A DNA stretch of 64,000 nucleotides from Diphasiastrum complanatum (taxonomy: Eukaryota > Streptophyta > Lycopodiopsida > Lycopodiales > Lycopodiaceae), in contig MU831565.1 of assembly GCA_029204225.1 (NCBI GenBank), positions 62,001 through 126,000 on the forward strand, in the 5' to 3' direction. Position numbers and translations under genes: made by a program. A model generated the notes under the pieces. It searched no databases, was not told the DNA's origin, and saw only the letters and a program-made list of their open reading frames with translations. Below, piece after piece: positions 14,126 through 36,802 of this stretch (positions are counted from its first letter, which is position 1; the number at the start of each line of letters is the position of its first letter).

Positions 14126-14780
14126 TGTGAAAAATACAGATCCTAAGTGGATCTAAACTCCAAGATCATTGGCTTGAATGCTTGCACTCCAAACTACATA
14201 AGCTAGGAATTGGCAACACATTCTATGCTACCTAGAATGCAAAGAACTTGATCAAAAAGCATTTATCACAAATGGAAACTTCCATAAACATCAAGTGCGG
14301 CCCAAAATAGCATTATACAGTCCATAATACATCAGCCTACCACTTTTGGAAAGCACCTAAGATCATACACAATAGCTTGAAGACAATACACACAACAATG
14401 CTCTCAATGGAGGAAGAAACAATGACAATGATCTATTGATCTCAATGAAGCATACAAAAGGTTTCTCCAACCTGTTCTCCACGACTTCCCTACTATTTAT
14501 GGATGAGGAAGATGACTCTCTCTCCTCTCTCTAGAAGGTACTTGACCCTAGATATTCCCTATATAGGAAAAATAGCTAAAAATGGCTTATATGACCAAAA
14601 TACATCAAAATGGTCTCATTTTGAAGGGTATGAAGTTTGACACTTCATCATACTGAAAAAATACAGTAAATAAAAACATTGTGGCCTGGTTCACACGTGT
14701 GAAACTCCAGAACCAAAACTATTTACAATTTTAGCCAATTTAGGCCTCAAACTAGCTAGGAAATGTTGACAATTTTCACA
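14126..14780 (-). repeat. C1 3' LTR (left end in the window)
   Basis: Plus-strand ends are TGTGAAAAATAC… and …TTTTCACA. The perfect palindrome TTCACACGTGTGAA lies at 14690-14703 in the U3 part. The element's polypurine tract adjoins its right edge. Confidence 0.95.
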
Positions 14781-14793
14781 CTCCCTCTTCAAC
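14781..14793 (-). other. C1 polypurine tract
   Basis: On the minus strand the sequence is GTTGAAGAGGGAG, directly before the TGTGAAAATTG start of the 3' LTR. This is the plus-strand primer site of reverse transcription. Identical tracts precede the LTRs of C2 and C4. Confidence 0.9.
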
Positions 14794-14887
14794 ATTGGAT
14801 GCTAGTTTCAACATAGTCTTTGAGCACATTCCAAGATTAGATCTATGCATTAAATATAGGTCCTTTCCCAATGGTTTGGTGAAGATA

Positions 14888-17800
14888 TCAGCCACACACC
14901 TTTGAAGAGACATGTTGAAGCTCCACCTCTTTGGCAATGACTTGATCTCTCACAAAATGGTGAGCAATCTCAATGTGCTTGCTCCTTGCATGAAAAACAG
15001 GATTGCTTGCCAAGCTTTGGGCTGAAAGGTTATCACAAAGTATGATTGGAGTCTTCTCTGGTTCCAGCAAGTGAAGATCCAATAACATCCTCTTGATCCA
15101 AAGAATCTCCTTGGTGCATGTTGTTAATGCCTTGTACTCGGCTTCGGTGGAAGATAGAGAGATAGTTGGTTGCTTCTTTGATAGCCATGAGACCACTCCA
15201 TCTCCAAGATAGATTGCAAAGGCACTTGTTGACTTCCTATCATTTGATCACCTGCAAAATCTGAATCTGAAAATCCACAAAGGTTAGGTGTAGTACCTCC
15301 ATACAAGATGCCAAAATCTCTAGATCCCGAGATGTATCTAAGTACTCTCTTTCCTAGCTTCCAATGAGCCTCACTAGGATCTTGCATAAATTGACTTAGT
15401 TTACCAACCACAAAGCTTAGATCAGGTCTTGTGATGGTTAACCATATAAGAGATCCTATTAGCTTTCTATAGAGAGTAATGTCCTTGAAGGATCTTTCAT
15501 TACTTCTTGTAGTTAGCTTTACATTTGATTCCATAGGAGTAGAAACAACTTTACAATCTTCCATATGAAACCTTTTTAGAATAGAGTTAACATACTTTTC
15601 TTGACATATGAATGTAGATTTAGAACTTCTAATAATCTCTATTCCTAAGATATAATGAAGTTTACCAAGATCTTGAATTTCAAACTCTCTTTTGAGTGCC
15701 ATCTTGATTTCATCTATATCTAGATTGTTACCACCACTTAAGATAATGTCATCAACATAGATCAAAAGTAAAGTGATATCATTTTCATTCAATCTAAAGT
15801 AGAGAGAATGATCATACTCACTCATAACAAAGTTTTGAGAAAGTAAGAAGGAATTGATCTTAGCATACCAACTCCTTGGTGCTTGCTTTAGCCCATACAA
15901 ACTCTTTTGGAGATAGCACACATGATTAGGCTCATCATGTGAAACATAGCCCTCGGGTTGCTCCATGTAAATATCTTCTTCAAGATCACCATTCAAGAAG
16001 GCATTAGTAACATCCATTTGCCACATATCCCAATCATAAAGAGTTGCAAGAGAGATTAGGATTCGAATAGTTACCATCTTTGCCACGGGTGCAAAGGTCT
16101 CATCATAGTCAATACCATATTCTTGAGCATACCCCTTTGCCACCAACCTTGCCTTGTACTTGTTGATTGATCCATCTTGATTTGTCTTGATCTTGAAGAT
16201 CCACTTACAACCAATTGCCTTCTTGTCCTTTGGAAGCTTTACCAACCTCCATGTGTTGCTTTTGATGAGTGCTTGATGCTCATGATCCATGGCTTGGATC
16301 CATTCCTTCTTTTGAATTGCTTCACCTACACAAGTTGGTTCATCAAAAGAGGTAAGAAAAGCAAGGTTAGAGTTGTCCACCACTTGCTTTCCTTTTTCAT
16401 CATAGGTTAGCCTTGATGGCTTAGCCCTTTGCCTTTGAGTCTTCCTTGAAGTTTGCTTTGGAGTGGCATCTCCATCTTCATCCAAGACATCTTGCACATC
16501 ATGATGATTAGTAGGCACATCAACATCAACATCAACAACATTGGAAACATTCTCTTCATGAAAGATGACATCCCTACTTATGACAACTTTCTTTGTAGAA
16601 GGAATGTACACTTTGTAAGCCTTGCTTACTTCACTATAGCCAACAAACACACCCTTCTTTGATGAAGGATCTTCTTTAGTTCTATCATCAAGTGTGATAT
16701 TGACAAAACATGTACATCCAAAGATCCTACAATGCTTGACACTCGGCCTTCTACCATAAAGAACCTCATGAGGAGTTTTACCATCCAAGGAAGCACTTGT
16801 CCATCTATTACATAGATAGTTAGCACATGCTAAAGCTTCCCCCCAAAAAGACTTAGCAAGATTAGCATGTAGTCTCATTGCCTTGGCACATTCACAAAGG
16901 GTTCTATTCTTCCTCTCGGCCACTCCATTCTGTTGTGGAGTCCTAGGACTAGACATCTCCCTCTTAATCCCATGTGCTATACAAAAGTCTTTGAACCTAT
17001 TTGAGGTGTATTCCCCTCCATTATCAGATCTTAAGCATTTGATCTTTGTATTGAATTGGTTTTCCATTTCATTCTTGAACTTGACAAATGCAGCAAACAC
17101 TTCATCCTTACTTTTAAGAAGATAGATCCAAGTATACCTACTAAAGTCATCAATGAAAGTTGCATACATCTTTGCCCCACCATTGCTAGTTGTACTAGAA
17201 GAATGAATATCAGAATGCACAAGTTGAAAAGCTTCTTTAGATCTAGAAGTAGATCTAGAATAAGCAAGTCTATGAGATTTGGACAAGGCACAATGTTCAC
17301 AAACACTATTGTTTGCAACAAGACTTTTAGGGAGACCAAGAACAAGCTCTTTCTTTGCCATTACCTCCAAAGATTTGAAGTTGGGATGGCCCAACCTCTT
17401 GTGCCAAACTTCTTGGTTTGTCAATTGCTCCCTAGCCATACATCCTTCATGATTAGAGATCACACATGCATCAAGCTTGAAAAGTTTACCATGCCTCCTA
17501 CCTTGAGCAATCAAGGATCCACATTTACTTATCAAACATGCATCTCGAATGAACTCCACATCAAGTCCTTTGACAATCATTTGACTTACACTAAGCAAAT
17601 TCTTAGTGATTGAAGGAATGTACAAAACATTTTCAAGATTTGCTTTCCTATTTGTTGAAAGGGAAATAGGAATAGTGCCTATGCCTTTGATGTCACATTG
17701 ACCATCATTTGCAGTGTAGATGATGTTACCTTCTCCCTCATAAGACAATAAGGATGTAAAGTATTCCTTATGTCTTGTCATGTGAGATGAGGCTCCACTA

Positions 17801-18726
17801 TCAATCCACCAAGGATCATTATCATCTATGTTGGCTAACAAACTTGAAGTCATAACAAGTGATTCACATGTGTTATGTTCTTCCTCATCTATTGTAAGAT
17901 TTCCTTGCCTCTCTCCTTGCTCTCTTTTCTTCTTATAACATTCATTTGCAAAATGACCTTTTATCCCACAATAAAAGCACTTGAACTTTGACTTATTGTT
18001 CTTAGTAGAAGAGGAAGAGGAAGAGTGATCATCATGATCAAAGTTACCACCTTTGGACCATTTCCCTTTGCCTTTACCTTTGCCCTTGAATTTGCCTTTT
18101 GTGAAGAAAGCCTCTTCACCTCCACCTTGCAAGGATGCACCATCAAGCTTTGATTGCAACCTATGTTCTTCAGCCAACAAGATTTCTTGCAAGTCAACCA
18201 CACTTGGCAAGACTCTTTGAATGGCAAAACTTTGCACAAGGTTAGCATGTTCATTTAGCAAACCATTCAACATAACTTGGACTATTTCACCATCTTTTAT
18301 GTTCTCATCAATGCATGCTAAATCATCACTTAGGGACTTAACTCTCAAGATAAATGCATGAGCACTTTCACCCTCTCTTTGCCTACTAGAAAATATTTGT
18401 CTCCTTAGGGTCAATACCCTAGATGTGGACTTTGATTCAAAGAGCTTCTTTAAGGCATTCCATGCCTCACTTGCACTTTGACACTTTCCAACTTCCTTGA
18501 GAAGTTCATTTGTAACATTCATTTTAATGATATGAAGAGCCCTTTTGGCCTTCTTATCAAACCTTTGTTGCTCTTGAAGTGTGAGAGGTCTCTCTTCAAT
18601 TTCTGCAACTATGTCCATGAGTTCATTCAACTCAAGTAAGGACTCCATCCTCACTTTCCAAGTAGAGTAGTTTGATGAACTCAACCTTTCACTAGACTCT
18701 AGCATGATCCCACCATTGGAAGCCAT
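14888..18726 (-). CDS. C1 gag-pol polyprotein (copia), two late frameshifts
   Basis: One open frame of 1,200 codons starts at ATG 18726 (MASNGGIMLESSERL). Gag is followed by a CCHC zinc knuckle at about residues 249-262 (CFYCGIKGHFANEC). Protease WWIDSGASSHM is near 305, integrase GHPNF near 443, with FIDDFSRY near 525 and SDNGGEY near 567. RT carries YVDDIILSG near 988 and RNase H SDSDFAGD near 1157. A missing G near 15240 shifts the frame in RNase H, so the tail continues in another frame down to 14888. There it stops early at VSSKVCG because of a second shift that C2 shares. Gag and pol share one frame, as in many plant copia elements. The usual order PR-IN-RT-RH is kept. Confidence 0.95.
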
Positions 18727-19883
18727 GATTCTAATGTTTCTTCAACTTTTAGGTTTTGTCCTAAAGCACTTAGCACTCACTTTTCTCTCAACAAATGATA
18801 GATAAAGAGATCTATGAAGATTTAGGACCCTAAAACACTTCTATCTTGAACCTAGATGGTTTCCAAGCATAGAAAGGAAGATTGAAACACATGCAACACT
18901 TTGCACACACTAAGAATGGATTACAAAATCAAACCAACCTGAACACACTCTTGCTTAAGCTCTCAAACTTTCCAGCAAGTGACCAAATCAAGTTATGGTG
19001 TGAAGAGTTACTTGCATTCTTAGAAAATACCCAAAACTAGGATGCCAAGATTACCTAGTAATGAACAAACTTGATCAACATATGATCAACACACTAAGAT
19101 ATTGATTCAACCTGTAAAACCACATGTAAACCACACTTCTAAAAGTTTATAAACTCCAGCAAGTGATAAATACAAGATTTAGAGGTGAATGAATGAGCAC
19201 ACTTAGTGAATCACAAGACTAGCTTCACTATCTTGTCAAATCTTGGTGTTTAGATGTAGATCTAAGATCACTTCACATGAGAATGTTCCTCAACCTGTTA
19301 AGAACCTGAAAACACACTTGCATAATGGTTAACACCTTCCAGCAAATGCTCCAATCAAATTACATAAGGAGAGTTACGTACATGCTCAACAAAGTACACC
19401 AAAAATTATGCCAAAATTGATGACAATCTTTACAATATGCTCTTCACAATGGAGCTTACAATATGTTCACCCAAAAAAGGGGATCTTTCATCCAAATGGG
19501 AGCTTTGCTCAGCCTTTAGGAGAATTACAACTCACTCAAAAGAGCATTTGTCATCCACTTAAGGAGAAGTTTCATCCACTTAAGGAGAGTGTTCATCCAA
19601 GAATGGAGATTGTCAACAATAGGATTGAAAAGAACATTGTTAGTATTGAATATGCACAAGCCTCACAATCACAAATGATTAGGTGTTATGATCTGATCCA
19701 AAATAGTTTCTTTTCAGCCTCTGATCTTCAATAGACCTGAAATATGCTTTTGATCCACAAGTTCAACTCACAAAACAAAGGTTAGTAAGATTTGATCAAC
19801 AAAGCAATGCAAAATCATGCTAGAACTTGATCAAACATCCAAATATCACCAAAAATGGAATACTTACTGTAAATAGAAGCCAA
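18727..19883 (-). other. C1 untranslated leader with tandem 21-bp units
   Basis: About 1.16 kb between primer site and gag start, long for copia. It holds short imperfect units (plus strand catccacttaaggagaag-like) near 19455-19620, and an open frame on the opposite strand. Confidence 0.8.
19408..19734 (+). other. Antisense ORF in the C1 leader, 108 aa
   Basis: It runs opposite to gag-pol. It starts MPKLMTIFTICSSQW and contains a run of FHP/CHP/VHP units (HPLKEKFHPLKES) produced by the 21-bp repeats. The same ORF occurs in C2, C4 and E5 with almost no change. No known domain is seen. Because the copies are young, sameness alone does not prove that it is translated. Confidence 0.4.
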
Positions 19884-19898
19884 CCAGCTCTGATACCA
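19884..19898 (-). other. C1 primer binding site
   Basis: The minus strand reads TGGTATCAGAGCTGG directly after the 5' LTR. This is complementary to the 3' end of initiator Met tRNA, the usual primer of plant copia elements. Confidence 0.95.
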
Positions 19899-20553
19899 TG
19901 TAAAAAATACAGATCCTAAGTGGATCTAAACTCCAAGATCATTGGCTTGAATGCTTGCACTCCAAACTACATAAGCTAGGAATTGGCAACACATTCTATG
20001 CTACCTAGAATGCAAAGAACTTGATCAAAAAGCATTTATCACAAATGGAAACTTCCATAAACATCAAGTGCGGCCCAAAATAGCATTATACAGTCCATAA
20101 TACATCAGCCTACCACTTTTGGAAAGCACCTAAGATCATACACAATAGCTTGAAGAGAATACACACAACAATGCTCTCAATGGAGGAAGAAACAATGACA
20201 ATGATCTATTGATCTCAATGAAGCATACAAAAGGTTTCTCCAACCTGTTCTCCACGACTTCCCTACTATTTATGGATGAGGAAGATGACTCTCTCTCCTC
20301 TCTCTAGAAGGTACTTGACCCTAGATATTCCCTATATAGGAAAAATAGCTAAAAATGGCTTATATGACCAAAATACATCAAAATGGTCTCATTTTGAAGG
20401 GTATGAAGTTTGACACTTCATCATACTGAAAAAATACAGTAAATAAAAACATTGTGGCCTGTTTCACACGTGTGAAACTCCAGAACCAAAACTATTTACA
20501 ATTTTAGCCAATTTAGGCCTCAAACTAGCTAGGAAATGTTGACAATTTTCACA
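19899..20553 (-). repeat. C1 5' LTR (right end in the window)
   Basis: 655 bp, starting TGTAAAAAATAC on the plus strand, one base different from the left LTR start. The palindrome TTCACACGTGTGAA is at 20463-20476. It would drive leftward transcription. Confidence 0.95.
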
Positions 20554-22367
<1,814 letters not shown>

Positions 22368-23022
22368 TGTGAAAATTGTCAACATTTCCTAGCTAGTTTG
22401 AGGCCTAAATTGGCTAAAATTGTAAATAGTTTTGGTTCTGGAGTTTCACACGTGTGAACCAGGCCACAATGTTTTTATTTACTGTATTTTTTCAGTATGA
22501 TGAAGTGTCAAACTTCATACCCTTCAAAATGAGACCATTTTGATGTATTTTGGTCATATAAGCCATTTTTAGCTATTTTTCCTATATAGGGAATATCTAG
22601 GGTCAAGTACCTTCTAGAGAGAGGAGAGAGAGTCATCTTCCTCATCCATAAATAGTAGGGAATTCATGGAGAACAGGTTGGAGAAACCTTTTGTATGCTT
22701 CATTGAGATCAATAGATCATTGTCATTGTTTCTTCCTCCATTGAGAGCATTGTTGTGTGTATTGTCTTCAAGCTATTGTGTATGATCTTAGGTGCTTTCC
22801 AAAAGTGGTAGGCTGATGTATTATGGACTGTATAATGCTATTTTGGGCCGCACTTGATGTTTATGGAAGTTTCCATTTGTGATAAATGCTTTTTGATCAA
22901 GTTCTTTGCATTCTAGGTAGCATAGAATGTGTTGCCAATTCCTAGCTTATGTAGTTTGGAGTGCAAGCATTCAAGCCAATGATCTTGGAGTTTAGATCCA
23001 CTTAGGATCTATATTTTACACA
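22368..23022 (+). repeat. C2 5' LTR
   Basis: 655 bp from TGTGAAAATTG to …TTTTACACA, with the palindrome TTCACACGTGTGAA at 22445-22458. Confidence 0.95.
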
Positions 23023-23037
23023 TGGTATCAGAGCTGG
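23023..23037 (+). other. C2 primer binding site
   Basis: TGGTATCAGAGCTGG directly follows the LTR, complementary to initiator Met tRNA. Confidence 0.95.
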
Positions 23038-23186
23038 TTGGCTTCTATTTACAGTAAGTATTCCATTTTTGGTGATATTTGGATGTTTGATCAAGTTCTA
23101 GCATGATTTTGCATTGCTTTGTTGATCAAATCTTACTAACCTTTGTTTTGTGAGTTGAACTTGTGGATCAAAAGCATATTTCAGGT

Positions 23187-23513
23187 CTATTGAAGATCAG
23201 AGGCTGAAAAGAAACTATTTTGGATCAGATCATAACACCTAATCATTTGTGATTGTGAGGCTTGTGCATATTCAATACTAACAATGTTCTTTTCAATCCT
23301 ATTGTTGACAATCTCCATTCTTGGATGAACACTCTCCTTAAGTGGATGAAACTTCTCCTTAAGTGGATGACAAATGCTCTTTTGAGTGAGTTGTAATTCT
23401 CCTAAAGGCTGAGCAAAGCTCCCATTTGGATGAAAGATCCCCTTTTTTGGGTGAACATATTGTAAGCTCCATTGTGAAGAGCATATTGTAAAGATTGTCA
23501 TCAATTTTGGCAT
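23187..23513 (-). other. Antisense ORF in the C2 leader, 108 aa
   Basis: The same open frame, opposite to gag, as in C1, identical in its visible translation. See the C1 copy for its repeat-rich composition. Confidence 0.4.
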
Positions 23514-24968
23514 AAATTTTGGTGTACTTTGTTGAGCATGTAAGTAACTTTCCTTATGTAATTTGATTGGAGCATTTGCTGGAAGGTGTTAACCATTATG
23601 CAAGTGTGTTTTCAGGTTCTTAACAGGTTGAGGAACATTCTCATGTGAAGTGATCTTAGATCTACATCTAAACACCAAGATTTGACAAGATAGTGAAGCT
23701 AGTCTTGTGATTCACTAAGTGTGCTCATTCATTCACCTCTAAATCTTGTATTTATCACTTGTTGGAGTTTATAAACTTTTAGAAGTGTGGTTTACATGTG
23801 GTTTTACAGGTTGAATCAATATCTTAGTGTGTTGATCATATGTTGATCAAGTTTGTTCATTACTAGGTAATCTTGGCATCCTAGTTTTGGGTATTTTCTA
23901 AGAATGCAAGTAACTCTTCACACCATAACTTGATTTGGTCACTTGCTGGAAAGTTTGAGAGCTTAAGCAAGAGTGTGTTCAGGTTGGTTTGATTTTGTAA
24001 TCCATTCTTAGTGTGTGCAAAGTGTTGCATGTGTTTCAATCTTCCTTTCTATGCTTGGAAACCATCTAGGTTCAAGATAGAAGTGTTTTAGGGTCCTAAA
24101 TCTTCATAGATCTCTTTATCTATCATTTGTTGAGAGAAAAGTGAGTGCTAAGTGCTTTAGGACAGAACCTAAAAGTTGAAGAAACATTAGAATCATGGCT
24201 TCCAATGGTGGGATCATGCTAGAGTCTAGTGAAAGGTTGAGTTCATCAAACTACTCTACTTGGAAAGTGAGGATGGAGTCCTTACTTGAGTTGAATGAAC
24301 TCATGGACATAGTTGCAGAAATTGAAGAGAGACCTCTCACACTTCAAGAGCAACAAAGGTTTGATAAGAAGGCCAAAAGGGCTCTTCATATCATTAAAAT
24401 GAATGTTACAAATGAACTTCTCAAGTTGGAAAGTGTCAAAGTGCAAGTGAGGCATGGAATGCCTTAAAGAAGCTCTTTGAATCAAAGTCCACATCTAGGG
24501 TATTGACCCTAAGGAGACAAATATTTTCTAGTAGGCAAAGAGAGGGTAAAAGTGCTCATGCATTTATCTTGAGAGTTAAGTCCCTAAGTGATGATTTAGC
24601 ATGCATTGATGAGAACATAAAAGATGGTGAAATAGTCCAAGTTATGTTGAATGGTTTGCTAAATGAACATGCTAACCTTGTGCAAAGTTTTGCCATTCAA
24701 AGAGTCTTGCCAAGTGTGGTTGACTTGCAAGAAATCTTATTGGCTGAAGAACATAGGTTGCAATCAAAGCTTGATGGTGCATCCTTGCAAGGTGGAGGTG
24801 AAGAGGCTTTCTTCACAAAAGGCAAATTCAAGGGCAAAGGTAAAGGCAAAGGAAAATGGTCCAAAGGTGGTAACTTTGATCATGATGATCACTCTTCCTC
24901 TTCCTCTTCTACTAAGAACAATGAGTCAAAGTTCAAGTGCTTTTATTGTGGGATAAAAGGTCATTTTG

Positions 24969-25615
24969 TGTGAAAAATACAGATCCTAAGTGGATCTAAA
25001 CTCCAAGATCATTGGCTTGAATGCTTGCACTCCAAACTACATAAGCTAGGAATTGGCAACACATTCTATGCTACCTAGAATGCAAAGAACTTGATCAAAA
25101 AGCATTTATCACAAATGGAAACTTCCATAAACATCAAGTGCGGCCAAAAATAGCATTATACAGTCCATAATACATCAGCCTACCACTTTTGGAAAGCACC
25201 TAAGATCATACACACAAAGCTTGAACTCAATCACTACACAATGCCAACAATGGAAGGAGAACCCAATAGAAAAATCTCTCATTAAGCAAATGAATACAAT
25301 GGATCTGCTCCAACCTGTTTCTCCACGGCCTACCTGCTATATATAGCTGAGAGACATGACTCTCTCTCCTCTCTCTAGACCCTGCTTACCTAAAATATGC
25401 CCTATATAGGTAAAATTGGCATATATGTCCAAAATACATGAAAATGGACTCATTTCGAAGGTCTTGAAGTTTGACACTTCTTCATACTGAAAAAATACAC
25501 TTACTAAAAATATCTAGACCTGTTTCACACGTGTGAAAAGTCAGATCCTAAACTATGTGCCATTTTTAGCAATTTTGGCCTAAAACTAGACAAGGAAATG
25601 TTGACAATTTTCACA
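24969..25615 (-). repeat. C4 3' LTR
   Basis: The first roughly 247 plus-strand bases (U5/R side) match C1 almost exactly. From about 25216 on (U3 side) it is clearly diverged though alignable. It keeps the palindrome at 25524-25537. Confidence 0.95.
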
Positions 25616-25628
25616 CTCCCTCTTCAAC
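25616..25628 (-). other. C4 polypurine tract
   Basis: The minus strand reads GTTGAAGAGGGAG and directly abuts the stop codon of the 1,030-codon ORF. Confidence 0.9.
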
Positions 25629-28600
25629 TTAACTTGCTAGTTTTACAACACTACTTTGTTCCAACTTAAGAATGATCTCCATCATCAGAATAGATCTCTT
25701 CTCAAGGATCCTAATATGTACAAAATAGGACACAACATAATTGATATAGATAATAGTGTCCATATAGGATGCTTCACTATTTCTTACATCAATTTTACAT
25801 AGAATCATAAAAATGGTACATGTAAAAGAACATAGAATCTCAATTAATGAATTCCTCCATGTATCCATCTCTGGTTTCTCTGTAAAATAGCAGCAAACAA
25901 GCTGTAAATGAAAGTGATCAACAAGTGTTTGCATGCCTCCTCCACATTTCACTATACATATAGTGAATGCAACATGTATCTCCATGAATGAACTTCCATC
26001 ACCACCTTGCCTTTGTAGATCTTCAATCCATGAAAGACTTTGAGTGAATGAATGCCAAAAAGATGTGTTCCCTACTCCATTTGAATGACCAAAACCTGAA
26101 CTTGAAATACTTGAAGTACCTCCACAAGATTTGCACACAACGCTTGATCCTACAATGTCAACAAGTTGCCAATTTGCCAACACTAGAATACTAGATCTTG
26201 AACTTTGTTCAAAAGAAAACATATTGACCACTTCAATACCTTTCAAGATCTGAATGAATTCATGTACTTGATCATACAAACCAGCAATGATAACTATTCC
26301 ATCTCCAAGATCCAAAGGATGCAAAACTATGGAACTAGTTTTATTGAAATTTGACAATTTCAACACATTGACATAACAATGTTCATACATGAGATTAGGC
26401 AAGTGAGGTAGAGTAAGAAGACACTTCCTTGCAGCTCCAAAGACCTTACTTGAACCTTCAAGAACCTGTAAAAACAGATCCAAAATGCCTTGACCATTTG
26501 TCTCTTCTTTGATGCTTTTCACTAGCTTCGAATTGCCACTTGTCTCTTGGTGTTGATGAAGCAATCCAAGATCAACCTCTTGATCTTCCAATAAGACATC
26601 AAAGATCTTGCATATGTGAACATCTTCAGATCTGAAACTCTGAAGATACTCCCTCTCAAACACATGATTAAGATCCCACAAGATCTCATCAATGCTCAAA
26701 TTTGACCCTTCACTATAGTTAGTGAAAACAATGCCACCATCATAAACCAAAAGATAGATTCCAACATTTCCATTTAACATGAAGTAGAGTAGGTGAAGAT
26801 GAGTATCAAACCTAATCGAAACAGCCCTCTTGAGTTCATAACAAACCTCAATAAGCTCACCAATGATATCTCCCTTGCCTTGAAGAAGTTGCCACTTGAG
26901 TTGCTCCATGTAGTCTTCTTCAACCAACCTTTTGCCATCTTGACCATGAATGAACAATCCACCACAATCATAGAATGCTTTGAGTTGATGAAGAGATGTT
27001 AGATCCATGCTTTGGATCTTCCCAAGAACCACTCTTCCATTGCCCTTTCCTTCACAAGACTCCCTCTTAATGCTAGCACCACAAAAGTTAGAAACCTCCC
27101 TCTTGATAGTTGCACCATAAGAAGTAGAAGACTCTTGAATATTAGAAGCCAAGAAAAGAATCCTTAGTACCTTCAACATAAGAGTGATTGAAGTACTCTC
27201 TCTTTTCAAACATGAACTTCTACTCAATGATTTAGGTAATGAGTCATATGATAATGATTCTTCCTCACTATCGTTCATAAAAACATCATTCAAAGTACAT
27301 CCTACTTTGAACATTTCACATACTTCTCTTCCTTTTGACTTGTGATCTCCCTCACCAAGTCTCATGATAGAAACCTTTGATCTACTCTTTTTATGAAGAA
27401 ATGTGACACCACTTGTTGCACAAATGACTTTATCACAAAAAGATGTAAAAGGACCATTTCCTTCAAGCATGCTCAAAGCACCATCATCTTTTCCCACATG
27501 ATTACATACATCAATATGAAAAGAATTAGAAAAACAACCATCTTCTTGCAAAGAATGACACTTAGCATCTCCATCTTTTTCCATATGAACAAACAAGTCA
27601 TTAGCAACAATCACTTCCAAAGAAGAATCTTCATCAACTCCATTGATGAAGTTAGCTCCTTCCTTACCTTTTCCATTTTTGCACTTGCCATCTAGCACCA
27701 TTGAAGAACCACCAAGCCTTGGAAGTCCATGAGTAGAAGAGTACAAACATGATGCTAATTTAGCTCCACATGACTCCATATGACTAGTAGGTAACACTAG
27801 TGCATCTTCAAGATCCAATGGATCCAAAAAATTGACCATAGATTCACCAAAGCTTGCCAAGTTAGCACAACAATTATCATCTCCAAGAAGTACATTAGAT
27901 CTCAACCTAGATCTAGCATTTTGTTTCTTATGGCATTCATTTGCAAAATGTCCTTTTATCCCACAATAAAAGCACTTGAACTTTGACTTATTGTTCTTAG
28001 TAGAAGAGGAAGAGGAAGAGTGATCATCATGATCAAAGTTACCACCTTTGGACCATTTCCCTTTGCCTTTACCTTTGCCCTTGAATTTGCCTTTTGTGAA
28101 GAAAGCCTCTTCACCTCCACCTTGCAAGGATGCACCATCAAGCTTTGATTGCAACCTATGTTCTTCAGCCAATAATATTTCTTGCAAGTCAACCACACTT
28201 GGCAAGACTCTTTGAATGGCAAAACTTTGCACAAGGTTAGCATGTTCATTTAGCAAACCATTCAACATAACTTGGACTATTTCACCATCTTTTATGTTCT
28301 CATCAATGCATGCTAAATCATCACTTAGGGACTTAACTCTCAAGATAAATGCATGAGCACTTTCACCCTCTCTTTGCCTACTAGAAAATATTTGTCTCCT
28401 TAGGGTCAATACCCTAGATGTGGACTTTGATTCAAAGAGCTTCTTTAAGGCATTCCATGCCTCACTTGCACTTTGACACTTTCCAACTTCCTTGAGAAGT
28501 TCATTTGTAACATTCATTTTAATGATATGAAGAGCCCTTTTGGCCTTCTTATCAAACCTTTGTTGCTCTTGAAGTGTGAGAGGTCTCTCTTCAATTTCTG

Positions 28601-28721
28601 CAACTATGTCCATGAGTTCATTCAACTCAAGTAAGGACTCCATCCTCACTTTCCAAGTAGAGTAGTTTGATGAACTCAACCTTTCACTAGACTCTAGCAT
28701 GATCCCACCATTGGAAGCCAT
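25629..28721 (-). CDS. C4 Gag fused to a diverged, catalytically dead pol-like ORF, 1,030 aa
   Basis: Starts at ATG 28721. Residues 1 to about 262 equal C1 Gag through the zinc knuckle CFYCGIKGHFANEC. The sequence then departs abruptly. About 340 residues follow without any protease DSG, integrase HHCC or DDE signature. From about residue 600 faint copia RT likeness returns: VEEDYMEQL matches C1 EEDIYMEQP, and LLVYDGGIVF at residue 660 stands where C1 has LLIYVDDIIL. NLSIDEILWDLNHVFERE follows, matching NLDIDEIKMALKREFE. The end (SWIEDLQ, …VVKLAS) resembles the RNase H end SWLSKKQ … MLKLAS. Both RT catalytic Asp of YVDD are lost or displaced, yet no stop breaks the frame. It may be a structural Gag-pol relic, a trans-acting accessory protein, or a slowly decaying pol kept open by chance. 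I recognise no other domain. Confidence 0.85.
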   Translation of the reverse strand: MASNGGIMLESSERLSSSNYSTWKVRMESLLELNELMDIVAEIEERPLTLQEQQRFDKKAKRALHIIKMNVTNELLKEVGKCQSASEAWNALKKLFESKSTSRVLTLRRQIFSSRQREGESAHAFILRVKSLSDDLACIDENIKDGEIVQVMLNGLLNEHANLVQSFAIQRVLPSVVDLQEILLAEEHRLQSKLDGASLQGGGEEAFFTKGKFKGKGKGKGKWSKGGNFDHDDHSSSSSSTKNNKSKFKCFYCGIKGHFANECHKKQNARSRLRSNVLLGDDNCCANLASFGESMVNFLDPLDLEDALVLPTSHMESCGAKLASCLYSSTHGLPRLGGSSMVLDGKCKNGKGKEGANFINGVDEDSSLEVIVANDLFVHMEKDGDAKCHSLQEDGCFSNSFHIDVCNHVGKDDGALSMLEGNGPFTSFCDKVICATSGVTFLHKKSRSKVSIMRLGEGDHKSKGREVCEMFKVGCTLNDVFMNDSEEESLSYDSLPKSLSRSSCLKRESTSITLMLKVLRILFLASNIQESSTSYGATIKREVSNFCGASIKRESCEGKGNGRVVLGKIQSMDLTSLHQLKAFYDCGGLFIHGQDGKRLVEEDYMEQLKWQLLQGKGDIIGELIEVCYELKRAVSIRFDTHLHLLYFMLNGNVGIYLLVYDGGIVFTNYSEGSNLSIDEILWDLNHVFEREYLQSFRSEDVHICKIFDVLLEDQEVDLGLLHQHQETSGNSKLVKSIKEETNGQGILDLFLQVLEGSSKVFGAARKCLLTLPHLPNLMYEHCYVNVLKLSNFNKTSSIVLHPLDLGDGIVIIAGLYDQVHEFIQILKGIEVVNMFSFEQSSRSSILVLANWQLVDIVGSSVVCKSCGGTSSISSSGFGHSNGVGNTSFWHSFTQSLSWIEDLQRQGGDGSSFMEIHVAFTICIVKCGGGMQTLVDHFHLQLVCCYFTEKPEMDTWRNSLIEILCSFTCTIFMILCKIDVRNSEASYMDTIIYINYVVSYFVHIRILEKRSILMMEIILKLEQSSVVKLAS

Positions 28722-29878
28722 GATTCTAATGTTTCTTCAACTTTTAGGTTTTGTCCTAAAGCACTTAGCACTCACTTTTCTCTCAACAAATGATAGATAA
28801 AGAGATCTATGAAGATTTAGGACCCTAAAACACTTCTATCTTGAACCTAGATGGTTTCCAAGCATAGAAAGGAAGATTGAAACACATGCAACACTTTGCA
28901 CACACTAAGAATGGATTACAAAATCAAACCAACCTGAACACACTCTTGCTTAAGCTCTCAAACTTTCCAGCAAGTGACCAAATCAAGTTATGGTGTGAAG
29001 AGTTACTTGCATTCTTAGAAAATACCCAAAACTAGGATGCCAAGATTACCTAGTAATGAACAAACTTGATCAACATATGATCAACACACTAAGATATTGA
29101 TTCAACCTGTAAAACCACATGTAAACCACACTTCTAAAAGTTTATAAACTCCAGCAAGTGATAAATACAAGATTTAGAGGTGAATGAATGAGCACACTTA
29201 GTGAATCACAAGACTAGCTTCACTATCTTGTCAAATCTTGGTGTTTAGATGTAGATCTAAGATCACTTCACATGAGAATGTTCCTCAACCTGTTAAGAAC
29301 CTGAAAACACACTTGCATAATGGTTAACACCTTCCAGCAAATGCTCCAATCAAATTACATAAGGAGAGTTACTTACATGCTCAACAAAGTACACCAAAAA
29401 TTATGCCAAAATTGATGACAATCTTTACAATATGCTCTTCACAATGGAGCTTACAATATGTTCACCCAAAAAAGGGGATCTTTCATCCAAATGGGAGCTT
29501 TGCTCAGCCTTTAGGAGAATTACAACTCACTCAAAAGAGCATTTGTCATCCACTTAAGGAGAAGTTTCATCCACATAAGGAGAGTGTTCATCCAAGAATG
29601 GAGATTGTCAACAATAGGATTGAAAAGAACATTGTTAGTATTGAATATGCACAAGCCTCACAATCACAAATGATTAGGTGTTATGATCTGATCCAAAATA
29701 GTTTCTTTTCAGCCTTTGATCTTCAATAGACCTGAAATATGCTTTTGATCCACAAGTTCAACTCACAAAACAAAGGTTAGTAAGATTTGATCAACAAAGC
29801 AATGCAAAATCATGCTAGAACTTGATCAAACATCCAAATATCACCAAAAATGGAATACTTACTATGAATAGAAGCCAA
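28722..29878 (-). other. C4 leader, nearly identical to C1
   Basis: Contains the antisense ORF 29403-29729 and the 21-bp units. Only scattered base changes from C1 were seen, in sharp contrast with the diverged pol region and U3. Confidence 0.85.
29403..29729 (+). other. Antisense ORF in the C4 leader, 108 aa
   Basis: Same ORF as in C1 and C2 with two visible residue changes (HPHKES for HPLKES, and FDLQ for SDLQ at the end). Confidence 0.4.
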
Positions 29879-29893
29879 CCAGCTCTGATACCA
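29879..29893 (-). other. C4 primer binding site
   Basis: The minus strand reads TGGTATCAGAGCTGG next to the 5' LTR. Confidence 0.95.
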
Positions 29894-30540
29894 TGTGAAA
29901 AATACAGATACTAAGTGGATCTAAACTCCAAGATCATTGGCTTGAATGCTTGCACTCCAAACTACATAAGCTAGGAATTGGCAACACATTCTATGCTACC
30001 TAGAATGCAAAGAACTTGATCAAAAAGCATTTATCACAAATGGAAACTTCCATAAACATCAAGTGCGGCCCAAAATAGCATTATACAGTCCATAATACAT
30101 CAGCCTACCACTTTTGGAAAGCACCTAAGATCATACACACAAAGCTTGAACTCAATCACTACACAATGCCAACAATGGAAGGAGAACCCAATAGAAAAAT
30201 CTCTCATTAAGCAAATGAATACAATGGATCTGCTCCAACCTGTTTCTCCACGGCCTACCTGCTATATATAGCTGAGAGACATGACTCTCTCTCCTCTCTC
30301 TAGACCCTCCTTACCTAAAATATGCCCTATATAGGTAAAATTGGCATATATGTCCAAAATACATGAAAATGGACTCATTTCGAAGGTCTTGAAGTTTGAC
30401 ACTTCTTCATACTGAAAAAATACACTTACTAAAAATATCTAGACCTGTTTCACACGTGTGAAAAGTCAGATCCTAAACTATGTGCCATTTTTAGCAATTT
30501 TGGCCTAAAACTAGACAAGGAAATGTTGACAATTTTCACA
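29894..30540 (-). repeat. C4 5' LTR
   Basis: 647 bp, palindrome at 30449-30462. It is followed directly by the target duplication TTTTG and the remaining C2 gag. Confidence 0.95.
30262..30271 (-). promoter_or_regulatory. Likely TATA box of the C4 5' LTR
   Basis: CTATATATAG in the U3/R part of the 5' LTR, with transcription expected leftward. C1 and C2 have weaker ATAAATAG and CTATATAGG words in the matching part. Confidence 0.5.
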
Positions 30541-33500
30541 TTTTGCAAATGAATGTTATAAGAAGAAAAGAGAGCAAGGAGAGAGGCAAGGAAATCTTAC
30601 AATAGATGAGGAAGAACATAACACATGTGAATCACTTGTTATGACTTCAAGTTTGTTAGCCAACATAGATGATAATGATCCTTGGTGGATTGATAGTGGA
30701 GCCTCATCTCACATGACAAGACATAAGGAATACTTTACATCCTTATTGTCTTATGAGGGAGAAGGTAACATCATCTACACTGCAAATGATGGTCAATGTG
30801 ACATCAAAGGCATAGGCACTATTCCTATTTCCCTTTCAACAAATAGGAAAGCAAATCTTGAAAATGTTTTGTACATTCCTTCAATCACTAAGAATTTGCT
30901 TAGTGTAAGTCAAATGATTGACAAAGGACTTGATGTGGAGTTCATTGGAGATGCATGTTTGATAAGTAAATGCGGATCCTTGATTGCTCAAGGTAGGAGG
31001 CATGGTAAACTTTTCAAGCTTGATGCATGTGTGATCTCTAATCATGAAGGATGTATGGCTAGGGAGCAATTGACAAACCAAGAAGTTTGGCACAAGAGGT
31101 TGGGCCATCCCAACTTCAAATCTTTGGAGGTAATGGCAAAGAAAGAGCTTGTTCTTGGTCTCCCTAAAAGTCTTGTTGCAAACAATAGTGTTTGTGAACA
31201 TTGTGCCTTGTCCAAATCTCATAGACTTGCTTATTCTAGATCTACTTCTAGATCTAAAGAAGCTTTTCAACTTGTGCATTCTGATATTCATTCTTCTAGT
31301 ACAACTAGCAATGGTGGGGCAAAGATGTATGCAACTTTCATTGATGACTTTAGTAGGTATACTTGGATCTATCTTCTTAAAAGTAAGGATGAAGTGTTTG
31401 CTGCATTTGTCAAGTTCAAGAATGAAATGGAAAACCAATTCAATACAAAGATCAAATGCTTAAGATCTGATAATGGAGGGGAATACACCTCAAATAGGTT
31501 CAAAGACTTTTGTATAGCACATGGGATTAAGAGGGAGATGTCTAGTCCTAGGACTCCACAACAGAATGGAGTGGCCGAGAGGAAGAATAGAACCCTTTGT
31601 GAATGTGCCAAGGCAATGAGACTACATGCTAATCTTGCTAAGTCTTTTTGGGGGGAAGCTTTAGCATGTGCTAACTATCTATATAATAGATGGACAAGTG
31701 CTTCCTTGGATGGTAAAACTCCTCATGAGGTTCTTTATGGTAGAAGGCCGAGTGTCAAGCATTGTAGGATCTTTGGATGTACATGTTTTGTCAATATCAC
31801 ACTTGATGATAGAACTAAAGAAGATCCTTCATCAAAGAAGGGTGTGTTTGTTGGCTATAGTGAAGTAAGCAAGGCTTACAAAGTGTACATTCCTTCTACA
31901 AAGAAAGTTGTCATAAGTAGGGATGTCATCTTTCATGAAGAGAATGTTTCCAATGTTGTTGATGTTGATGTTGATGTGCCTACTAATCATCATGATGTGC
32001 AAGATGTCTTGGATGAAGATGGAGATGCCACTCCAAAGCAAACTTCAAGGAAGACTCAAAGGCAAAGGGCTAAGCCATCAAGGCTAACCTATGATGAAAA
32101 AGGAAAGCAAGTGGTGGACAACTCTAACCTTGCTTTTCTTACCTCTTTTGATGAACCAACTTGTGTAGGTGAAGCAATTCAAAAGAAGGAATGGATCCAA
32201 GCCATGGATCATGAGCATCAAGCACTCATCAAAAGCAACACATGGAGGTTGGTAAAGCTTCCAAAGGACAAGAAGGCAATTGGTTGTAAGTGGATCTTCA
32301 AGATCAAGACAAATCAAGATGGATCAATCAACAAGTACAAGGCAAGGTTGGTGGCAAAGGGGTATGCTCAAGAATATGGTATTGACTATGATGAGACCTT
32401 TGCACCCGGGGCAAAGATGGTAACTATTCGAATCCTAATCTCTCTTGCAACTCTTTATGATTGGGATATGTGGCAAATGGATGTTACTAATGCCTTCTTG
32501 AATGGTGATCTTGAAGAAGATATTTACATGGAGCAACCCGAGGGCTATGTTTCACATGATGAGCCTAATCATGTGTGCTATCTCCAAAAGAGTTTGTATG
32601 GGCTAAAGCAAGCACCAAGGAGTTGGTATGCTAAGCTCAATTCCTTCTTACTTTCTCAAAACTTTGTTATGAGTGAGTATGATCATTCTCTCTACTTTAG
32701 ATTGAATGAAAATGATATCACTTTACTTTTGATCTATGTTGATGACATTATCTTAAGTGGTGGTAACAATCTAGATATAGATGAAATCAAGATGGCACTC
32801 AAAAGAGAGTTTGAAATTCAAGATCTTGGTAAACTTCATTATATCTTAGGAATAGAGATTATTAGAAGTTCTAAATCTACATTCATATGTCAAGAAAAGT
32901 ATGTTAACTCTATTCTAAAAAGGTTTCATATGGAAGATTGTAAAGTTGTTTCTACTCCTATGGAATCAAATGTAAAGCTAACTACAAGAAGTAATGAAAG
33001 ATCCTTCAAGGACATTACTCTCTATAGAAAGCTAATAGGATCTCTTATATGGTTAACCATCACAAGACCTGATCTAAGCTTTGTGGTTGGTAAACTAAGT
33101 CAATTTATGCAAGATCCTAGTGAGGCTCATTGGAAGCTAGGAAAGAGAGTACTTAGATACATCTCGGGATCTAGAGATTTTGGCATCTTGTATGGAGGTA
33201 CTACACCTAACCTTTGTGGATTTTCAGATTCAGATTTTCAGGTGATCAAATGGATAGGAAGTCAACAAGTGCCTTTGAAATCTATCTTGGAGATGGAGTG
33301 GTCTCATGGCTATCAAAGAAGCAACCAACTATCTCTCTATCTTCCACCGAAGCCGAGTACAAGGCATTAACAACATGCACCAAGGAGATTATTTGGATCA
33401 AGAGGATGTTATTGGATCTTCACTTGCTGGAACCAGAGAAGACTCCAATAATACTTTGTGATAACCTTTCAGCCCAAAGCTTGGCAAGCAATCCTGTTTT

Positions 33501-33700
33501 TCATGCAAGGAGCAAGCACATTGAGATTGCTCACCATTTTGTGAGAGATCAAGTCATTGCCAAAGAGGTGGAGCTTCAACATGTCTCTTCAAAGGTGTGT
33601 GGCTGATATCTTCACCAAACCATTGGGAAAGGACCTATATTTAATGCATAGATCTAATCTTGGAATGTGCTCAAAGACTATGTTGAAACTAGCATCCAAT

Positions 33701-33713
33701 GTTGAAGAGGGAG
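33701..33713 (+). other. C2 polypurine tract
   Basis: GTTGAAGAGGGAG directly before the 3' LTR, identical to that of C1 and C4. Confidence 0.9.
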
Positions 33714-34368
33714 TGTGAAAATTGTCAACATTTCCTAGCTAGTTTGAGGCCTAAATTGGCTAAAATTGTAAATAGTTTTGGTTCTGGAGTTTCACACGTG
33801 TGAACCAGGCCACAATGTTTTTATTTACTGTATTTTTTCAGTATGATGAAGTGTCAAACTTCATACCCTTCAAAATGAGACCATTTTGATGTATTTTGGT
33901 CATATAAGCCATTTTTAGCTATTTTTCCTATATAGGGAATATCTAGGGTCAAGTACCTTCTAGAGAGAGGAGAGAGAGTCATCTTCCTCATCCATAAATA
34001 GTAGGGAAGTCGTGGAGAACAGATTGGAGAAACCTTTTGTATGCTTCATTGAGATCAATAGATCATTGTCATTGTTTCTTCCTCCATTGAGAGCATTGTT
34101 GTGTGTATTGTCTTCAAGCTATTGTGTATGATCTTAGGTGCTTTCCAAAAGTGGTAGGCTGATGTATTATGGACTGTATAATGCTATTTTGGGCCGCACT
34201 TGATGTTTATGGAAGTTTTCATTTGTGATAAATGCTTTTTGATCAAGTTCTTTGCATTCTAGGTAGCATAGAATGTGTTGCCAATTCCTAGCTTATGTAG
34301 TTTGGAGTGCAAGCATTCAAGCCAATGATCTTGGAGTTTAGATCCACTTAGGATCTGTATTTTTTACA
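33714..34368 (+). repeat. C2 3' LTR
   Basis: 655 bp from TGTGAAAATTG to …TTTTTTACA, with the palindrome at 33791-33804. The five bases beyond are ACATG. Confidence 0.95.
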
Positions 34369-34399
34369 ACATGAAGATGCCACAATTTTGATACCCCTT
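34369..34399. other. Short host sliver between C2 and E5
   Basis: Only 31 bases separate two family C elements of opposite orientation. It starts with ACATG, the target duplication of the original C2 insertion. Confidence 0.7.
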
Positions 34400-36802
34400 T
34401 GTGAAAAATACAGATCCTAAGTGGATCTAAACTCCAAGATCATTGGCTTGAATGCTTGCACTCCAAACTACATAAGCTAGGAATTGGCAACACATTCTAT
34501 GCTACCTAGAATGCAAAGAACTCGATCAAAAAGCATTTATCACAAATGGAAACTTCCATAAACATCAAGTGCGGTCCAAAATAGCATTATACAGTCCATA
34601 ATACATCAGCCTACCACTTTTGGAAAGCACCTAAGATCATACACAATAGCTTGAAGACAATACACACAACAATGCTCTCAATGGAGGAAGAAACAATGAC
34701 AATGATCTATTGATCTCAATGAAGCATACAAAAGGTTTCTCCAACCTGTTCTCCACGACTTCCCTACTATTTATGGATGAGGAAGATGACTCTCTCTCCT
34801 CTCTCTAGAAGGTACTTGACCCTAGATATTCCCTATATAGGAAAAATAGCTAAAAATAGCTTATATGACCAAACCTTTGTTGCTCTTGAAGTGTGAGAGG
34901 TCTCTCTTCAATTTCTGCAACTATGTCCATGAGTTCATTCAACTCAAGTAAGGACTCCATCCTCACTTTCCAAGTAGAGTAGTTTGATGAACTCAACCTT
35001 TCACTAGACTCTAGCATGATCCCACCATTGGAAGCCATGATTCTAATGTTTCTTCAACTTTTAGGTTTTGTCCTAAAGCACTTAGCACTCACTTTTCTCT
35101 CAACAAATGATAGATAAAGAGATCTATGAAGATTTAGGACCCTAAAACACTTCTATCTTGAACCTAGATGGTTTCCAAGCATAGAAAGGAAGATTGAAAC
35201 ACATGCAACACTTTGCACACACTAAGAATGGATTACAAAATCAAACCAACCTGAACACACTCTTGCTTAAGCTCTCAAACTTTCCAGCAAGTGACCAAAT
35301 CAAGTTATGGTGTGAAGAGTTACTTGCATTCTTAGAAAATACCCAAAACTAGGATGCCAAGATTACCTAGTAATGAACAAACTTGATCAACATATGATCA
35401 ACACACTAAGATATTGATTCAACCTGTAAAACCACATGTAAACCACACTTCTAAAAGTTTATAAACTCCAACAAGTGATAAATACAAGATTTAGAGGTGA
35501 ATGAATGAGCACACTTAGTGAATCACAAGACTAGCTTCACTATCTTGTCAAATCTTGGTGTTTAGATGTAGATCTAAGATCACTTCACATGAGAATGTTC
35601 CTCAACCTGTTAAGAACCTGAAAACACACTTGCATAATGGTTAACACCAAAATTTATGCCAAAATTGATGACAATCTTTACAATATGCTCTTCACAATGG
35701 AGCTTACAATATGTTCACCCAAAAAAGGGGATCTTTCATCCAAATGGGAGCTTTGCTCAGCCTTTAGGAGAATTACAACTCACTCAAAAGAGCATTTGTC
35801 ATCCACTTAAGGAGAAGTTTCATCCACTTAAGGAGAGTGTTCATCCAAGAATGGAGATTGTCAACAATAGGATTGAAAAGAACATTGTTAGTATTGAATA
35901 TGCACAAGCCTCACAATCACAAATGATTAGGTGTTATGATCTGATCCAAAATAGTTTCTTTTCAGCCTCTGATCTTCAATAGACCTGAAATATGCTTTTG
36001 ATCCACAAGTTCAACTCACAAAACAAAGGTTAGTAAGATTTGATCAACAAAGCAATGCAAAATCATGCTAGAACTTGATCAAACATCCAAATATCACCAA
36101 AAATGGAATACTTACTGTAAATAGAAGCCAACCAGCTCTGATACCATGTAAAAAATACAGATCCTAAGTGGATCTAAACTCCAAGATCATTGGCTTGAAT
36201 GCTTGCACTCCAAACTACATAAGCTAGGAATTGGCAACACACTCTATGCTACCTAGAATGCAAAGAACTTGATCAAAAAGCATTTATCACAAATGGAAAC
36301 TTCCATAAACATCAAGTGCGGCCCAAAATAGCATTATACAGTCCATAATACATCAGCCTACCACTTTTGGAAAGCACCTAAGATCATACACAATAGCTTG
36401 AAGACAATACACACAACAATGCTCTCAATGGAGGAAGAAACAATGACAATGATCTATTGATCTCAATGAAGCATACAAAAGGTTTCTCCAACCTGTTCTC
36501 CACGACTTCCCTACTATTTATGGATGAGGAAGATGACTCTCTCTCCTCTCTCTAGAAGGTACTTGACCCTAGATATTCCCTATATAGGAAAAATAGCTAA
36601 AAATGGCTTATATGACCAAAATACATCAAAATGGTCTCATTTTGAAGGGTATGAAGTTTGACACTTCATCATACTGAAAAAATACAGTAAATAAAAAACA
36701 TTGTGGCCTGGTTCACACGTGTGAAACTCCAAAACCAAAACTATTTACAATTTTAGCCAATTTAGGCCTCAAACTAGCTAGGAAATGTTGACAATTTTCA
36801 CA
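34400..36802 (-). mobile_element. Copia E5, internally deleted family C element
   Basis: The left LTR (34400 to about 34873) lacks its U3 end and runs straight into gag codon 57 or so at a CAAA microhomology. All of pol and most of gag are lost. The remaining N-terminal Gag frame is 34850-35038. The leader has a further deletion near 35648 of about 70 bases and keeps the antisense ORF. Primer site 36132-36146; right LTR 36147-36802 with the palindrome at 36712-36725. It is flanked by a 4-bp duplication CCTT. It has no enzyme genes and is a dead deletion derivative. Confidence 0.9.
35656..35982 (+). other. Antisense ORF in the E5 leader, 108 aa
   Basis: Fourth copy of the leader ORF, intact although E5 has lost almost all sense coding sequence. 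Its visible translation equals that of C1. Confidence 0.4.

Follow-up and report, generated by a model that had tools for sequence, protein, structure and literature searches.

A recently moved Ty1/copia element of Diphasiastrum complanatum without detectable enzymes, and its long open tail shared among elements with different 5' parts

How non-autonomous retrotransposons keep pace with changing helpers is, to our knowledge, an open question. The element BARE-2 is reportedly, to judge by the title of its paper, a copia element without Gag. Here, we describe C4, a Ty1/copia element in which Gag is joined to a long open frame, located at positions 24,969 to 30,540 of a 64,000-nt window of Diphasiastrum complanatum DNA (the window being the whole stretch that was analysed: assembly GCA_029204225.1, contig MU831565.1, positions 62,001 to 126,000 of the forward strand). 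The nearest described kinds are the TR-GAG elements, the pol-less Athila elements, BARE-2 and Tos17, and the partial-domain elements of sunflower (see also PMC11963269).

The TR-GAG element AT5TE33540 of ATCOPIA63 encodes a 562-aa GAG and was seen to transpose in ddm1 Arabidopsis; a relative that may be autonomous has been put forward as its helper (PMC8704663). Like that element, C4 has two long terminal repeats (LTRs), a single Gag frame and no enzymes; unlike what is described there, it adds a 762-aa tail with a probable reverse transcriptase (RT) remnant, and 5' parts are interchangeable among its sister elements. Where a TR-GAG is Gag and nothing else, Gag makes up 268 of the 1030 aa of the C4 frame. 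C4 may be mobilised by an autonomous relative: a copia family denoted C has uninterrupted frames and cis signals in common with it. Arabidopsis pol-less Athila elements form whole non-autonomous families with intact frames, recombination with distant families and a hybrid Gag (PMC2410132). C4 likewise belongs to a family with intact frames and incongruent relationships among its parts, whereas the Athila frames, Gag and Env, are described there as under purifying selection and the extra frame of C4 appears partly pol-derived and weakly constrained. Tos17 is a copia element without Gag that relies on the proteins of a relative (PMC3977881). In common with BARE-2 and Tos17, C4 misses one function and would use a relative's proteins; unlike them, it retains Gag and is without pol enzymes. 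The sunflower TR-RTE classes TR-RT, TR-RT-RH, TR-RH and TR-INT-RT have partial domain sets and are transcribed, with one transcript per class (PMC9784723); C4 is also an LTR element with a partial domain set, but in its group one 3' module stands behind three 5' parts. The open-access literature searched yielded no element in which Gag continues into a long dead-RT frame common to several element types.

C4 lies on the minus strand and interrupts the gag of C2, a family C copy (22368-24968 and 30541-34368). Its parts and target-site duplication (TSD), followed by the other family C copy of the window, are:

24969..30540, minus strand: whole C4 element (type A)
30541..30545: upstream copy of the TSD, CAAAA on the minus strand, reading TTTTG on the plus strand
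24964..24968: downstream copy of the TSD, an exact match to the upstream copy
29894..30540, minus strand: 5' LTR, its U3 side 66-90% and its U5 side ~96-100% identical to family C (100-base windows)
24969..25615, minus strand: 3' LTR, 647 bp
29882..29893, minus strand: primer-binding site TGGTATCAGAGC, identical in family C
28722..29893, minus strand: leader, 99-100% identical to family C (100-base windows)
25629..28721, minus strand: open frame of Gag and tail, 1030 aa (ORF list)
27918..28721, minus strand: Gag with zinc knuckle, type A, that is family C Gag (Pfam PF14223, E 1.1e-22)
26924..27917, minus strand: tail 5' half, residues 269 to ~599
27060-27129, minus strand: 36-base tandem duplication within the tail 5' half
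25632..26923, minus strand: tail 3' half, the module common to type D (copy L066), 88.4% identity
26628..27017, minus strand: probable RT remnant, residues 569-698 (pairwise and multiple alignment)
26733..26744, minus strand: YDGG, where copia RT has the catalytic YVDD
25616..25628, minus strand: polypurine tract GTTGAAGAGGGAG, as in family C
14126..20554, minus strand: family C copy C1, LTR to LTR, of the presumed helper family

The initial annotation, made from the sequence of the window, had reported a 1,030-codon open reading frame (ORF), near-identical LTRs and an exact TTTTG duplication, and each was recovered: the ORF encodes 1030 aa, the LTR pair has 3 mismatches in 647 bases, and CAAAA stands on both sides of the element. 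Gag had been called an exact copy of that of family C; it is C-type but not exact, with 99.25% identity over 267 aa. Within the frame, the 268-aa Gag is followed by a tail of 762 aa. Two LTRs, a primer-binding site (with a putative resemblance to initiator tRNA-Met), a polypurine tract, a 5-bp TSD and a copia-type Gag are all present, as in Ty1/copia LTR elements. No protease, integrase, RT or RNase H of its own was detected by Pfam, blastp or pairwise scans, the RT remnant apart. C4 is a recently moved non-autonomous Ty1/copia element carrying cis signals and Gag without a detectable enzyme domain; the earlier picture of a recent Gag element with a long open tail, no RT catalytic motif and a probable dependence on family C holds.

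Copies were searched for in the plant's own genome (1.745 Gb). With the tail protein as query, 59 matches were scored out of 19148 candidates, and all 59 tails are open, although a list ranked by tail-protein score says nothing on decay. Among 21 copies from 11 contigs (C4 and 20 from this list), TSDs are identical in 18, LTR mismatches number 0-4 of 647 in all 21, and the frame is full-length in 20. A 91-base mid-tail query gave at least 40 exact matches (1023 candidates), 27 on the contig labelled C1 (101.6 Mb) and 13 on contig C2; the density on contig C1 would mean some 460 C4-family copies genome-wide. C4 is a member of a young family, probably of hundreds of copies, and not the single copy that the initial annotation had named as a refuting outcome. 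Thirty loci (L029-L058; some also in the tail-score list) were drawn from the 91-base matches without selection on tail score: 22 of these tails are free of stops and frameshifts and 8 are not (L030, L035, L039, L043, L045, L046, L050 and L052), the first 23 nt of L051 being unaligned. L045 and L046 have a 47-nt tail deletion in common and alike 3' flanks and would most simply be a duplicated locus; their interpretation as a broken tail that multiplied was withdrawn on account of these flanks. A further tail end (L062, contig C1 at ~94.761 Mb) lies directly upstream of the L046 5' LTR, which suggests an LTR-internal-LTR-internal array in that neighbourhood.

Comparison of C4 with family C in 100-base windows gave 66-90% identity on the U3 side, ~96-100% in U5 and leader and ~100% in Gag. 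U5, leader and Gag are essentially those of family C, and U3 and tail are proper to the C4 lineage. The identity profile places the breakpoints of Gag, exchanged as a cassette, near 28870 and 27940. In a second build, type B, another Gag stands between the same leader and tail (8 of 21 copies in the tail-score sample); the 30-locus sample comprises 21 type A copies, 9 type B and no other. Gag A and Gag B share 79% identity at the DNA level (163 differences over 786 aligned nt) and 79% in protein, with synonymous divergence dS 1.08, nonsynonymous divergence dN 0.125 and their ratio omega 0.116; both are therefore old Gags kept by selection. A tail variant in locus L034 pointed to a third build, type D, known from one copy read (L066), in which 1132 nt from the C integrase to the start of RT, at 99.7% identity, are followed in frame by the tail 3' half at the identity listed above, the whole piece remaining open for 796 codons. 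Over the 301 bases read, the Gag start of L066 matches C and C4 equally well (99.0% identity), and the U3 of this copy is 75-77% identical to both. The tract of the L034 variant has at least 40 exact matches (817 candidates), tail recombinants such as L034 and L043 among them. Taken together, types A, B and D show three 5' parts sharing one 3' module, with C-like sequence at the 5' side of all three, consisting in type B of U5 and leader only. Incongruent relationships among element parts thus appear in the identity profiles, the type A and B counts and L066, and the tail is a module behind at least three different 5' parts, which was not visible from the window alone.

A second tail haplotype has 13 differences at tail nt 115-221 (107 nt), 9 nonsynonymous (N) and 4 synonymous (S). 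Of the 9 type B copies in the 30-locus sample, 3 carry it whole and 2 partially; none of the 21 type A copies carries it, and its tract has at least 40 exact matches (carriers examined: L039, L048, L050 and L063-L065). This haplotype suggests a further diverged tail lineage.

The open frame of the tail is far beyond chance: no stop is observed, and a first-order Markov model gave a mean of 50 per 762 codons, with a minimum of 34 in 500 runs. Base composition by codon position is coding-like, and codon usage correlates with that of C pol at 0.935, which is weak evidence because the +2 frame of the tail also gives 0.897. Pfam searches of the tail produced nothing near the cut-off (best E 0.15 for a piece and 0.5 for the tail from residue 275), and no match with E<=1 was found among 7989 best-word candidates of a 5.8-billion-protein set that includes plant proteins. 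Structure prediction returned a predicted local distance difference test (pLDDT) score of 31 for the tail alone and of 43 for the RT remnant with 8 rows, and neither model was used. These searches found no relative of the tail 5' half, apart from the stretch where the RT remnant begins.

Residues 569-698 are likely a dead copia RT remnant. A blastp comparison with family C gave E 7e-6 for residues ~569-698 (part of this match, EEDYMEQ, sits where type D is joined); z exceeded 5 for this segment in 20 of 106 copia proteins, compared with 2 for one shuffled segment and 1 for the reversed segment, each out of 106; and the motifs flanking YDGG match copia RT in a multiple alignment. YDGG, which the initial annotation took for a replaced YVDD, does fall on YVDD when the tail is aligned with copia pol proteins, in 50 of the 106 compared, that of C being one of them; this count has no chance control. 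The catalytic YVDD-type motif is absent, the place being YDGG in C4 and YDGD in L066. Pairwise evidence is needed here because profile methods miss the RT: Pfam RVT_2 was not detected in the tail, and a profile built in-house from 106 copia RT-RNase H sequences scored it at -1.6 bits, compared with 1.7 for its own reverse and 3.9 for the best of 2000 shuffles. The profile check proposed earlier, against RVT_2 and RNase H, therefore came out negative for both. No segment beyond residue 698 exceeds the controls, so RNase H likeness is not confirmed, and blastp and pairwise scans found no likeness to C pol or to the copia RT-RNase H region in the rest of the tail. The pairwise matches and flanking motifs, despite the profile misses, make a dead RT remnant likely, with RNase H not shown; of the faint RT and RNase H likeness noted at first, the RT part survives and the RNase H part does not.

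Family C is the likely helper of C4. In a search with a 231-aa piece of C RT, 85 of the best 150 of 114273 candidates lie in a 1322-aa open frame (counted by eye). Both C copies of the window leave the frame within RNase H, at different places (15124-18726, minus strand, and 30641-33370, plus strand), so the helper would be elsewhere in the genome. Since the front parts of the sister elements come largely from a working relative, C4 most likely lives off that relative.

We consider it reasonably probable that C4 belongs to a non-autonomous Ty1/copia family, young and high in copy number, which is mobilised in trans by C and rebuilt by recombination, and whose tail is selected mainly for readability. 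Minus-strand template switching between co-packaged RNAs is established retroelement biology. C particles would package C RNA together with RNA of the tail lineage; the minus strand would begin on the tail RNA, copying its own U3 and tail first, and a switch to the C RNA would then add C sequence towards the 5' end, renewing the coding portion for which a fit to the current helper is required. The tail would have arisen in part from a copia RT, with loss of the catalytic residues. The main reason for its staying readable would be that termination after Gag leaves ~2.3 kb untranslated on an RNA serving as messenger and genome at once; exposure to nonsense-mediated decay is one candidate for the penalty. 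More tentatively, and with somewhat more doubt than belief, we suggest that a parasitic 3' module (dead-RT tail and own U3) may outlast bursts by repeatedly taking a new 5' coding part from the copia family that happens to be active, selected as translatable and not for its product: a coding frame without a coded function. The direction and frequency of exchange can be measured here, where one 3' module occurs with three 5' parts and the same genome holds an abundant family whose frames are uninterrupted, and the tail separates selection for an open frame from selection for protein sequence, which are usually mixed.

Selection on the tail was assessed at two depths. Among 31 tails (C4 and the 30 loci), private changes comprise 74 N, 25 S and 4 stops (neutral expectation 71.4/23.2/5.4%), and shared changes 22 N, 7 S and no stop, or 20 N : 6 S without three confined to L045 and L046. 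For these inherited variants (20 : 6), omega is estimated at 1.08 (0.42-3.3), and a value as low as that of Gag can be rejected at P 1e-7; the second of the two tracts of shared variants has 8 N : 0 S. Singletons counted in 20 copies of the tail-score list (16 S and 5 N; none of the variants shared; broken down by region for type A alone) were not used, since the rank in that list depends on the tail-protein score itself. For the deep comparison, the tail 3' half of L009, a C4-type copy, was aligned with that of L066 over 423 codons, the first 10 junction codons excluded. It shows 96 N and 39 S, no stop among 135 differences where 7.3 are expected, and two gaps, both multiples of three.

Several points weigh against the explanation that we prefer. 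The type B Gag is not from family C. Template switching, co-packaging and decay avoidance are proposed from sequence, and the helper status of C from frame length and common cis signals. The absence of stops from 26 inherited variants is not significant (P 0.24), and these variants amount to few events because they are clustered in two tracts. For the deep comparison, the P value of 5.6e-4 for the lack of stops takes differences as independent and comes from a single type D copy; the omega of 0.80 (0.55-1.19) is measured against an observed mutation spectrum drawn from 103 singletons; and the plain Nei-Gojobori (NG86) estimate, 0.61 (bootstrap 0.43-0.92), points to some protein-level selection. 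On the proposed check for a tail dN/dS below 1, the NG86 estimate lies below 1 and the intervals of the 1.08 and 0.80 values include 1. The omegas of 0.61 and 0.80 bracket the answer, beside 0.116 for Gag, the other retained frame: the frame appears to be kept, with amino acids weakly constrained or free, and we read this as weak constraint.

The initial annotation had favoured an accessory or structural protein, which, fused to Gag, would enter C particles and favour its own RNA, its sequence being under selection. The 762 open codons, the lack of stops and purely in-frame gaps over ~12% divergence in the tail 3' half, the NG86 estimate and the association of that half with three different 5' parts would all suit a working product. 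However, on the observed spectrum omega is not significantly below 1, and each tail estimate, be it 1.08, 0.80 or 0.61, lies far above the 0.12 of Gag; the widespread second haplotype, at 9 N : 4 S, and the tract at 8 N : 0 S run the same way; and Pfam, the protein database and structure prediction yielded no domain, homologue or confident fold. Strong protein-level selection is not supported on present evidence, and we regard such a protein as unlikely. Less probable still is an unselected passenger, captured recently and with too little time to decay. Private substitutions that fit neutrality, very young copies and the stop or frameshift already present in 8 of the 30 tails not chosen on tail score would agree with it, but none of the 135 differences across the 12% divergence introduces a stop, the two gaps keep the frame, and no frame-breaking change is common to independent copies of the 30-copy sample, given the probable duplication behind L045 and L046.

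Maize Bs1 contains captured host coding sequence, and the coding-like composition of the tail, its codon usage (weak in view of the +2 frame) and the lack of pol likeness at residues 269-568 would fit a similar origin of the tail 5' half or of the whole tail; with no homologue found, though plant proteins were in the database searched, and a copia RT remnant at residues 569-698, we hold this to be very improbable. An assembly mix of two elements, for which a window with nested, nearly identical copies is a setting, is already refuted, since elements of this build recur at many sites across several contigs, with TSDs that differ between sites, as in the 21 copies above.

Two further observations concern family C. 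On contig C2, a family C match at 69291086-69291778 falls, according to the search table, in an oddly long open frame of 4524 aa. In the window, Rfam microRNA matches at 34311-34457 scored below the gathering score and were rejected; they are explained by two family C LTRs that stand head to head there as a palindrome, one belonging to copy C2 and the other to fragment C3 (34399-36803).

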